The notes under the pieces are model-generated. The model was not told the origin of the DNA. It searched no databases and saw nothing but the letters and a program-made list of their open reading frames with translations. Made by a program: the position numbers and the translations under genes. 64,000 bases of DNA from Pseudomonadota bacterium. GTDB taxonomy: Bacteria; Desulfobacterota; Desulfovibrionia; Desulfovibrionales; Desulfomicrobiaceae. The stretch spans positions 1 through 64,000 of the forward strand of contig JAHIQM010000009.1 in assembly GCA_018902545.1 (NCBI GenBank). Direction: 5' to 3'. Of the stretch, positions 8,386-10,965 are shown in pieces (positions within the stretch are counted from its first letter, which is position 1; every line of letters starts with the position of its first letter).

Positions 8386-8428
8386 GCGGCAGGGCGGGTA
8401 TGGAAGCGAACCATGCCCGCCCTGCCGC
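8386..8428 (+). terminator. 18-bp GC-rich hairpin after the FKBP gene
   Basis: GCGGCAGGGCGGGTATGG (8386-8403) pairs with CCATGCCCGCCCTGCCGC (8411-8428) over 18 positions with one T-G wobble and a 7-base loop AAGCGAA. It starts 25 bases after the FKBP stop. No T-run follows, so it may act with Rho or as a 3'-end protector rather than as a classical intrinsic terminator. Confidence 0.6.
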
Positions 8429-8502
8429 GTCAAAGACTCCTCGCAATGGCTTTGAAGTATGCATCAAGCCGGTCCAAACGTCCCATTCTCAACACCGCCC
8501 GA

Positions 8503-8676
8503 GCGTTCCGGGCTGGTTCCGGGCAAGGGCCGCCGACTGTCTGACTGAACCAGACATCGTTTGTTGAATCGTTGCCTGACACGCCGTCCTAAATTTCCGT
8601 CCTGCACGCAACGATTCAACTCTACGAGGCCGGTGAAGGAGTTTCGGCGGCCCTTGCCCGGACCAGTCCGGGACGC
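8503..8676. ncRNA. Candidate structured RNA or MITE-like element: nested hairpin with 33-bp outer stem
   Basis: TCCGGGCAAGGGCCGCCGA (8518-8536) is perfectly inverted at 8644-8662. The stem extends outwards from 8516/8663 by 14 more pairs (two wobbles) after one bulged T at 8517. Inside, GTTGAATCGTTGC (8563-8575) is perfectly inverted at 8608-8620 and closes a 32-base apical loop. TGTCTG/CAGACA (8538-8556) forms a side hairpin at the junction. On the plus strand a transcript would run into the terminator at 8777; on the minus strand the layout loosely recalls a 6S-like rod with a bubble. Orientation, transcription and identity are not known. Confidence 0.5.
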
Positions 8677-8740
8677 GGCCGCACCCAGATGCCTTTCATC
8701 CTTCATGCAAACATCCATAACTCCCCTTCAGACCACGACA

Positions 8741-8777
8741 AAAAAGGGATTTCGGCCACATGTCGAAATCCCTTTTT
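8741..8777. terminator. Bidirectional intrinsic terminator between the structured region and relA
   Basis: AAAAAGGGATTTCG (8741-8754) and CGAAATCCCTTTTT (8764-8777) form a 14-bp stem with a 9-base loop. The A-run on one side and T-run on the other let it work in both directions. It lies 40 bases after the relA stop on the minus strand and would also end any plus-strand transcript from the upstream structured region. Confidence 0.9.
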
Positions 8778-8817: not shown

Positions 8818-10965
8818 TCACCCCGCCGAAGAGCGGGTCACTTCCTGAACAGCATCAAGCTTGCGCAGCTGTTCGATGATGCCGTAAAGTTGGGTCGTAG
8901 TCTTGACCTCGATGACAAAATCAAGCTCCGACATGCCGTCCACCCCCGAGGTGAACTGGCCGGAGTCGATATTGATCCCTTCCTTGGCCAGCAAACTGCT
9001 GACCATGCCCAGAACCCCGCGCTGATTCTTGCAGACCACCTTGATGCGCGCGGGCAGAGCCTTGGATTCCTCCTCCCCGCCCCAGCTCACGTCGAGCAGG
9101 CGCTCGATCTCCATATTGGCCACATTGGGACAGTCCTGGGTGTGCACTGTCACGCCCAGGCCCCGGCTGATGTAGCCGATGATGGGGTCGCCGGGCAGAG
9201 GGTTGCAGCACTGGGCGTAGCGGATGAGCACCCCGTCCACGCCCTTTATGCTGATGGAGTCAGGATCTTGCGGCTTGGTCTGGGCCGCGCCCGTACCGGC
9301 CACCTTGCGTTCCTCGTGCTTCTGCTCCTCCTTGGGCAGGAGTTTGCGGAGCACCTGGCGAGCAGTGATGCGGCCATGGCCCACGGCGGAGAAAAGGTCG
9401 TCGATCTGGCGGAAGGAAAATTCCTTGACCACGGGGTCGAAATCCCCGTTCTTGATGGCCTTGCCCACGTTTATGCCCATGCGCCGCCCTTCCTTTTCCA
9501 GAAGTTCCTTGGCCAGGGCCAGGCTGCGCGTGCGTTCCTCGGTGCCGATCCAGTGTTTGATGCGCGACCGGGCCTTGCCGGACTTGACGAACTGCAACCA
9601 GTCGCGACTGGGATTACGGGAGGCGTCGGTGATGATCTCCACCGTGTCGCCGTTCTTGAGCGCGGTATTGAGAGGAACTATGCGCCCGTTGACCTTGGCC
9701 CCGGCGCAGCGGTTCCCGACCTCCGTGTGGATGGTGTAGGCGAAATCCACGGGAGTCGCGCCCTCGGGCAGTTCCTTGACCTGGCCGCGCGGCGTGAAGA
9801 CGTAGACCTCGTCCTGGAACAGATCCATACTCAAGGTGGACATGAAGTCCCTGGAATCCTTCAGATCCCCCTGCCAGTCCAGAATCTGGCGCAGCCAGCT
9901 GAAACGGTCGCCCTCCTGAGCCTTCTTGCTGCCGTGCTCCTTGTAGGACCAGTGCGCGGCCACACCGTTCTCGGCCAGTTGATGCATCTCTTCCGTACGG
10001 ATCTGAATCTCTATGCGCTCGCCCTCGGGGCCGATGACCGTGGAGTGCAGACTCTGGTACATGTTGGCCTTGGGCATGGAGATGTAATCCTTGAACTTGC
10101 CCGGCACCGGCTTCCAGAGCGAGTGCACCAGTCCCAGCGCGGTATAGCATTCACGCAGATTGGTCACGATGACCCTGAAGGCGATCATGTCGAAGATCTG
10201 ATCCAGGGTCAGGCCGCGCTGCTTCATCTTGTGATAGATGGAATAGACGTGCTTGATGCGCCCCTTGACCCGGCCATGGATGTCGTTTTCGAGCAGCACG
10301 TCCTGAATCATGGTGCTGACCTTGTCGATGTAGGCCTGCCCCTGATCCTGGTAGCGGTTGATGCCCTCGGAAATCTGGGCGTACACGTCGGGCTTTAAAT
10401 ACTTGATCCCATAGTTCTCAAGCTGGACCTTCACGCGGTAAAGGCCCAGTCGATTGGCCAGAGGGGCGTAGATTCCGAGCGTCTCCTGGGCGATGGCGCG
10501 CTGCTTGTACTCCTTCTGAAACTCCAGGGTGGAGATGTTATGCAGCCGGTCGGCGAGCTTGACGAGGATGACCCGGATGTCATCGGCCATGGCCAGAATC
10601 ATCTTGCGGATGTTCTCGGCCTGAGCCTGCTCCTTGGACTCGAAATTCATCTTGCTGATCTTGGTCACGCCCTCGACGATGGCACCGACTTCCGGCCCGA
10701 ACAGTTCGATGATCTGCGGGACGGAGGCTTCGGTATCCTCCACCGTGTCATGCAGCAGCCCCGCCACGATGGTCGCCGCGTCCAGTCGCAGGTCAACGAG
10801 TATGTTGCTGACTTCCAGAGGGTGGGAGAGGTAGGGTTCGCCGGAAAGCCGAATCTGTCCGGCATGGGCGGCAGCGGAAAAGACATACGCCTTCTGGATC
10901 AACGCCACGTCCGTTGGAGGAAGATAGGTGGACGCCTGGTCCAGAATGTCTGTAATGCGAATCAT
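8818..10965 (-). CDS. Bifunctional (p)ppGpp synthetase/hydrolase (RelA/SpoT family)
   Basis: A 715-residue stringent-response enzyme. The N-terminal HD hydrolase domain is intact (HAGQIRLSGEPYLSHPLEV and GLLHDTVEDT), so hydrolysis is expected. It is followed by the synthetase domain (GRVKGRIKHVYSIYHKM to IEIQIRTEEMHQLAENGVAA), a TGS domain (VYVFTPRGQVKELPEGATP) and a C-terminal ACT domain (about 640-715). This is the single long Rel/SpoT type usual in deltaproteobacteria. The ATG at 10965 is preceded by AGGA at 6 bases and is preferred over an upstream frame start at 10998. It stands alone with its own terminator. Confidence 0.96.
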   Translation of the reverse strand: MIRITDILDQASTYLPPTDVALIQKAYVFSAAAHAGQIRLSGEPYLSHPLEVSNILVDLRLDAATIVAGLLHDTVEDTEASVPQIIELFGPEVGAIVEGVTKISKMNFESKEQAQAENIRKMILAMADDIRVILVKLADRLHNISTLEFQKEYKQRAIAQETLGIYAPLANRLGLYRVKVQLENYGIKYLKPDVYAQISEGINRYQDQGQAYIDKVSTMIQDVLLENDIHGRVKGRIKHVYSIYHKMKQRGLTLDQIFDMIAFRVIVTNLRECYTALGLVHSLWKPVPGKFKDYISMPKANMYQSLHSTVIGPEGERIEIQIRTEEMHQLAENGVAAHWSYKEHGSKKAQEGDRFSWLRQILDWQGDLKDSRDFMSTLSMDLFQDEVYVFTPRGQVKELPEGATPVDFAYTIHTEVGNRCAGAKVNGRIVPLNTALKNGDTVEIITDASRNPSRDWLQFVKSGKARSRIKHWIGTEERTRSLALAKELLEKEGRRMGINVGKAIKNGDFDPVVKEFSFRQIDDLFSAVGHGRITARQVLRKLLPKEEQKHEERKVAGTGAAQTKPQDPDSISIKGVDGVLIRYAQCCNPLPGDPIIGYISRGLGVTVHTQDCPNVANMEIERLLDVSWGGEEESKALPARIKVVCKNQRGVLGMVSSLLAKEGINIDSGQFTSGVDGMSELDFVIEVKTTTQLYGIIEQLRKLDAVQEVTRSSAG

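Follow-up and report, generated by a model that had tools for sequence, protein, structure and literature searches.

A dispersed structured repeat of Desulfovibrionales, with a transposon-bounded form in one genus and copies kept in place in Desulfomicrobium

Positions 8494–8685 of the window (the whole stretch of 64,000 nucleotides analysed here) belong to a family of structured, non-coding repeats, about 190 bases long, that occur dispersed in genomes of Desulfovibrionales. On balance, we favour its interpretation as a MITE-derived, ERIC-like repeat whose folded strand is kept by selection in Desulfomicrobium and which would act as RNA through a loop bound by a host protein. The family bears on the old question of whether the MITE-like repeats of bacteria are junk or working parts, as a single repeat is seen here in two states, mobile in a sister genus and vertically kept and structurally selected in Desulfomicrobium. 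These two states, together with the many loci per genome and a sharp replication polarity, allow a direct test of whether a bacterial MITE has been domesticated.

The window copy lies in a 456-base gap between the stop of an FKBP-type PPIase gene (8361; PF00254) and a convergent RelA/SpoT gene that ends at 8818. The initial annotation had placed three large hairpins in this gap, and all are found at those positions (Table 1). The central one indeed consists of 19 perfect pairs (8518–8536/8644–8662) with 14 more beyond one bulge (8503–8516/8663–8676, two of these being G·T), and the side hairpin (8538–8556) and the 13-bp apical stem with a 32-nt loop are likewise present. Its pairing exceeds chance, as had been supposed: the + strand of 8480–8700 folds at −114 kcal/mol as against −74.5 ± 4.6 for shuffled sequences (z −8.7; 0 of 200 shuffles), and the minus strand gives z −7.8. 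The view that it is no simple terminator also holds, and we rejected an intrinsic terminator as its identity, there being no U tract 3' of 8676 and no terminator common to the copies. The originally delimited extent, 8386–8777, contains the hairpins but is wider than the repeat unit (about 8494–8685), which leaves hairpin 1 and the terminator outside. The length of the unit is supported by two copies in the same genome (G000) that have a 194-bp stretch in common between unrelated flanks. Hairpin 1 is not part of the family since no second copy of it appears in the 279 kb searched from the own genome, and sequence related to the terminator-like hairpin occurs at the same place in relatives without the repeat.

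Table 1. Features of the window copy and of the gap around it (window positions)
Feature	Position	Strand	Remarks
Whole repeat element, window copy	8494..8685	+	Ends approximate; arms fray beyond 8503–8676
Outer stem P1, 5' arm	8503..8536	+	14 pairs, bulged T8517, 19 pairs; pairing conserved, sequence free
Outer stem P1, 3' arm	8644..8676	+	Pairs with 8503..8536
Internal-loop motif, 5' side	8537..8556	+	CTGTCTGACTGAACCAGACA; family CTGTCTGACTGAGCCAGGCA; invariant alignment columns
Invariant 4-bp junction helix, TCGT	8557..8560	+	99% paired, nearly invariant
Invariant 4-bp junction helix, ACGA	8624..8627	+	Partner of TCGT
Apical stem P3, 5' arm	8563..8575	+	Covarying
Apical stem P3, 3' arm	8608..8620	+	Covariation analysis
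Apical loop, 32-nt	8576..8607	+	Fastest-evolving part, by per-position divergence
Internal-loop motif, 3' side	8628..8643	+	GGCCGGTGAAGGAGTT; family GGCCNGCGAAGGAGTT; invariant columns, near-zero orthologue divergence
Hairpin 1, 18-bp, 3' of the FKBP gene	8386..8428	.	Arms 8386–8403/8411–8428, 17/18 pairs; outside the repeat family
Terminator-like hairpin in the FKBP–RelA/SpoT gap	8741..8777	.	Arms 8741–8754/8764–8777

A BLAST search with 8430–8740, of the kind that the initial annotation had proposed, gave 63 matches in the own genome, many of them 120–200 bp long at 73–87% identity, and so established that the central hairpin region is multicopy. A covariance model built on the family finds 62 matches in the same genome, of which a few weakly scoring ones may be the same palindrome on the other strand. 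Several contigs of this assembly (L012, L026, L029, L030, L035) end in or near repeat copies, so that the assembly breaks there and the true number of copies may be higher. By the same model, 11 of 16 Desulfomicrobium genomes carry the repeat, at 62 copies down to 0 per species. The covariance search of Desulfovibrionales, also proposed at the outset, detected the repeat in 25 of 247 genomes, which represent 7 of 51 genera, and brought out compensatory changes. When 395 genomes across the phylum were searched with strict filters, the own genome was the sole one to score. The repeat is thus a short, multicopy, non-coding element with inverted-repeat arms, as MITEs are defined. Among 4227 Rfam families, none matches the central hairpin convincingly even at an E-value of 10, no match listed there extending across it, and the window, the locus and the sister-genus copies are likewise without Rfam matches; a search for phage, plasmid and viral-contig homologues found none, and an open-access literature search did not find the family described. 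Some copies form direct-orientation tandem arrays with a constant unit of 270 or 328 bp including spacer (L087 in G006, L111 in G013 and G001:C7:33445–34245), and one 442-bp copy (L206, G033:C7) has its core split by an inserted stretch with more hairpins, that is, nested repeats.

The anatomy of the element emerges from an alignment of about 46 own-genome copies with their flanks. Nearly all contain CTGTCTGACTGAGCCAGGCATCGTTTG ... TACGAGGCCNGCGAAGGAGTTTCG, and the outer arms and apical stem vary in sequence from copy to copy while keeping their complementarity. In these copies, 97.4% of the cells of a structure comprising P1, P2 and P3 are paired, both sides have changed in 28 of its 42 pairs, and compensatory cells number 244 as against 67.1 ± 6.4 in shuffles; shifting the partner by a single column lowers pairing to about 41–44%. 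With other genera added, there are 342 compensatory cells (96 in shuffles). The small side hairpin P2, which is possible within 8537..8556 of the window copy, was dropped as a universal feature: other genera do not preserve its pairing, which falls to 84% when they are added, with no compensatory change. In the outer stem of the + strand, G·T outnumbers A·C by 138 to 6, and the fold under selection is therefore the one formed by the + strand of the window. Folding is possible for either strand, and by DNA parameters the + strand is slightly more stable in 27 of 33 copies, an edge that seems too small to account for the replication bias described below. The anatomy, a long rod in which a conserved internal loop stands between two freely varying stems, suggests that the loop is read in the folded strand by a protein or nucleic-acid partner.

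In Desulfomicrobium, most of the sampled copies sit at orthologous intergenic sites. Flank alignment places 17 of 20 fetched regions with copies from G015 in synteny with regions of G000 copies, and the syntenic copies are generally mutual best matches at about 72–95% identity. Over the alignment columns of 15 orthologue pairs, identity is 88% in the core, 76% in the arms and 48% in the 60-bp flanks (71% of aligned letters), and the motif positions have hardly changed while the apical loop changes fast. Among 629 pair comparisons in the core helices, 27 show compensatory changes, 25 one-sided changes that keep the pair and 23 changes that break it; 27 of the 29 double changes keep the pair, though template-switch correction of palindromes can give double changes without selection. 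Template switching is insufficient as a full account, because neither the unpaired motifs nor the G·T bias follow from it. The comparison indicates purifying selection on the folded element at fixed sites, and selection is the simplest reason for the keeping of the folded + strand.

Stability is lower for the window copy itself, which is confined to G000 and G014, with the same location in both, and is missing from seven other syntenic relatives. In the FKBP–RelA gap of relatives (L131, L132, L134, L135, L136), other REP-like inverted repeats (GGCATGGATTCCCGCCTGCGCGGGAATGAC) stand instead of the window element, and the gap is therefore a hot spot for small repeats; the GGCATGGATTCCCGCCTGCGCGGGAATGAC-type repeat has 19 near matches over 279 kb of sequence from the own genome. 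At another site, in G015, a whole copy is gone between short GTGGC repeats and one arm end is left (L014 2595–2790 against L164 2401–2405), an apparent slippage deletion of the hairpin. The alternative of taking L164 for an empty insertion site was set aside, as deletion better fits the remaining arm end.

The transposon form of the repeat is clear in a sister genus (g7) from another family of Desulfovibrionales, where CAGGGCAANNTTGTTCTCAC inverted repeats bound the same core to give elements of 250–261 bp. Six copies (L196, L203, L209, L211, L212, L213) have perfect 10-bp flanking duplications and several others match at 9/10. ISAs1 elements have ends beginning with CAGGG and 10-bp direct repeats (PMC11946415), and a 1913-bp element in G053, also of g7, has matching ends around an ISAs1-family (PF13808) transposase. 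What carries the core in g7 is an ISAs1-type MITE, recognisable by its CAGGGCA... terminal inverted repeats and by target duplications of 10 bp. The structured core is lacking in other MITEs whose ends are the same (L197 and L198) and is therefore unnecessary for movement. In G029, the group L197–L201 (L197, L198, L199, L200, L201) has CAGGGCA or similar ends and long ATCGAAATCG-type palindromes without the structured core, two of the five with perfect 10-bp target duplications; a supposed autonomous element at G029:3.477 Mb was rejected, its ends being paired by chance and its interior consisting of ordinary genes. Two ISAs1-type transposases (L215, G053:C399; L217, G033:C55) are fusions of an N-terminal DruA domain (PF14236, a Druantia protein) to DDE_Tnp_1_assoc, linking a domain of defence genes to a transposase.

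Among the genomes searched, PF13808 matches only in G033, G049 and G053, with none in Desulfomicrobium. Copies from the latter genus show no clear excess of target duplications over mismatched flanks, and none is visible at the window copy; nor are CAGGG terminal inverted repeats and 10-bp direct repeats recognisable in it or its congeners, and the window copy is therefore not filed as an ISAs1 MITE. From the common core, we infer that the Desulfomicrobium copies probably descend from such a MITE. The initial proposal of a MITE is thus supported as to origin, by the copy number and by the terminal inverted repeats and 10-bp duplications of g7, but the Desulfomicrobium copies are without clear ends or duplications.

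Alternatively, the copies could be dead MITE relics, with arms held complementary by hairpin template switching and motifs conserved only while the copies are young or homogenised. The clear MITE form in g7 and the deletion across GTGGC repeats in G015 would suit such relics, and imperfect palindromes are known to be corrected through template switching. Yet orthologues with flanks only 48% identical have almost the same loop motifs, and conversion does not explain the motifs since the P3 stems between the motif blocks stay locus-specific; the 138:6 bias of G·T over A·C also speaks against it. We regard relics of this kind as unlikely. A different mover, a RAYT (Y1) transposase acting on a REP/REPIN-like repeat, is suggested by the 2–6 RAYT genes in each carrier tested versus 0–1 in four non-carriers. 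However, the element is nearby at only 1 of 25 RAYT loci, on which ground we rejected it as the mover; the RAYTs can be accounted for by the other REP-type repeats present, and in g7 the ends of the element are of DDE type, with duplications of 10 bp. This is the most improbable of the explanations weighed. A retron ncRNA or another retroelement driven by reverse transcriptase was likewise discarded, as no RVT_1 domain occurs in the carriers G000, G006, G012, G014 and G015.

By home-made gene calls and with tandem copies included, the own-genome copies fall into convergent gaps (22), after a same-direction gene (15), into divergent gaps (3) or antisense (1). An early count had implied that the copies strongly prefer the sense orientation relative to the upstream gene; once tandem copies and orthologues were removed, only the convergent/3' placement stayed firm. 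The orientation relative to replication is strongly polar. In two complete genomes, the structured strand is directed against fork movement, which makes it the template of the leading strand, for 32 of 37 collapsed loci (G015; p 4e-6) and 32 of 41 loci (G009; p 2e-4), and the switches in repeat orientation coincide with the turning points of GC skew. Within convergent gaps alone, the same holds for about 31 of 33 by local skew, and gene direction cannot account for this since it is symmetric in convergent pairs. The g7 copies with transposon ends have the same lean (16:4, by local GC skew rather than mapped replichores) in an unbiased gene context.

Such polarity is not predicted by a role as RNA and favours a role as DNA at the fork. 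The element might work as DNA, as a hairpin or cruciform at the replication fork recognised via its conserved internal loop, the copies being polar chromosome-wide sites with a fork, segregation or nucleoid function. The strand bias in both genomes, its persistence within convergent gene pairs and the absence of any conserved unit with a promoter or a terminator all point that way. Against it, the selected strand differs from the exposed lagging-strand template, copy number ranges from 62 to 0 across species of the genus, the protein partner is purely hypothetical and G·T tolerance is most familiar from RNA, so that we rate this role as possible but doubtful. Equally tentative is a broader proposal, in which a transposon-derived hairpin has been domesticated so that about 50 chromosomal sites, polar to the fork, selected in place and with a predicted protein-binding loop, would make up a chromosome- or conflict-management system. 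If true, these polar domesticated sites would be a repeat-based system new to description.

We narrowly rank a role as RNA ahead of a role as DNA; the 3' placement and the G·T tolerance fit it, and ERIC is its best precedent. Transcription of the upstream gene would read into the element, which would then act in the manner of ERIC, as RNA, with the conserved internal loop as a putative binding site for a host protein, and its presence in the RNA may alter the 3' end, stability or termination of the upstream transcript. This RNA-level step is the least certain part of the explanation. At 8 of 29 loci a predicted intrinsic terminator separates the gene from the element, and at 2 of 29 one follows the element, so that many copies may be outside mRNA; an upstream promoter conserved among orthologues was not found (flanks 48% identical). 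The structured RNA transcribed toward the terminator that the initial annotation had envisaged is accordingly supported in its structure and + strand, by covariation in paralogues and orthologues and by the 138:6 ratio, but not by a conserved promoter, and terminators are commoner before the element than after it. Its alternatives of a structured RNA or a MITE are thus partly supported: the element is a MITE by origin and under structural selection, and its RNA is putative. An independently transcribed small RNA family, such as a protein sponge with some 60 paralogues, would share the RNA-like covariation and strand choice, and the conserved GGA in the 3' motif (AAGGAG) could serve as a candidate CsrA-like site. 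We nevertheless judge this very unlikely, with no promoter conserved upstream of orthologues, no common downstream terminator and no matching Rfam family. Weighing against our preferred account of a MITE-derived, RNA-acting repeat are the limitation of the window copy to two genomes, the lack of PF13808 and of a clear excess of target duplications in Desulfomicrobium, and the possibility of compensation by template switching.

Several known systems offer points of comparison. The rod of 6S RNA (RF00013), about 180–190 nt with an internal bubble, is similar in outline, but a 6S-like RNA on the minus strand, as had been suggested, is not supported: the element has no Rfam match even at an E-value of 10, RF00013 included, and the canonical, single-copy 6S RNA of the genome is separate from the repeat (L256, G000:C13:60489–60670). 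We know of no description of Correia/NEMIS with a conserved unpaired core and covarying arms. These elements of Neisseria are mobile palindromes whose transcripts fold and may be processed by RNase III (PMC2229807); the present repeat, likewise palindromic and in g7 mobile, differs in host and ends. The g7 copies resemble ISAs1-family MITEs in their CAGGGCAANNTTGTTCTCAC terminal inverted repeat, 10-bp duplications and, in one genome, an ISAs1-type transposase with matching ends, whereas the Desulfomicrobium copies have no recognisable terminal repeats, duplications or transposase. The closest parallel is with ERIC, also called IRU or RU-1 (enterobacterial repetitive intergenic consensus, 127 bp): both are dispersed intergenic palindromes of 100–200 bp in tens to hundreds of copies, MITE-like and with a long stable stem, ERIC acting on transcripts of the genes preceding it (PMC2229807, PMC10969869) and altering upstream-transcript stability in an orientation-dependent way (PMC2229807). 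Unlike ERIC, the repeat has no ERIC primer-site sequence (the ERIC2 site is absent with 3 mismatches allowed), its arms vary freely with the internal loop as the conserved part, and it belongs to another bacterial group and has replication polarity. The family is hence best placed as an undescribed variant of the MITE/ERIC-like repeats, unusual in its structural selection in place and in its polarity to replication.
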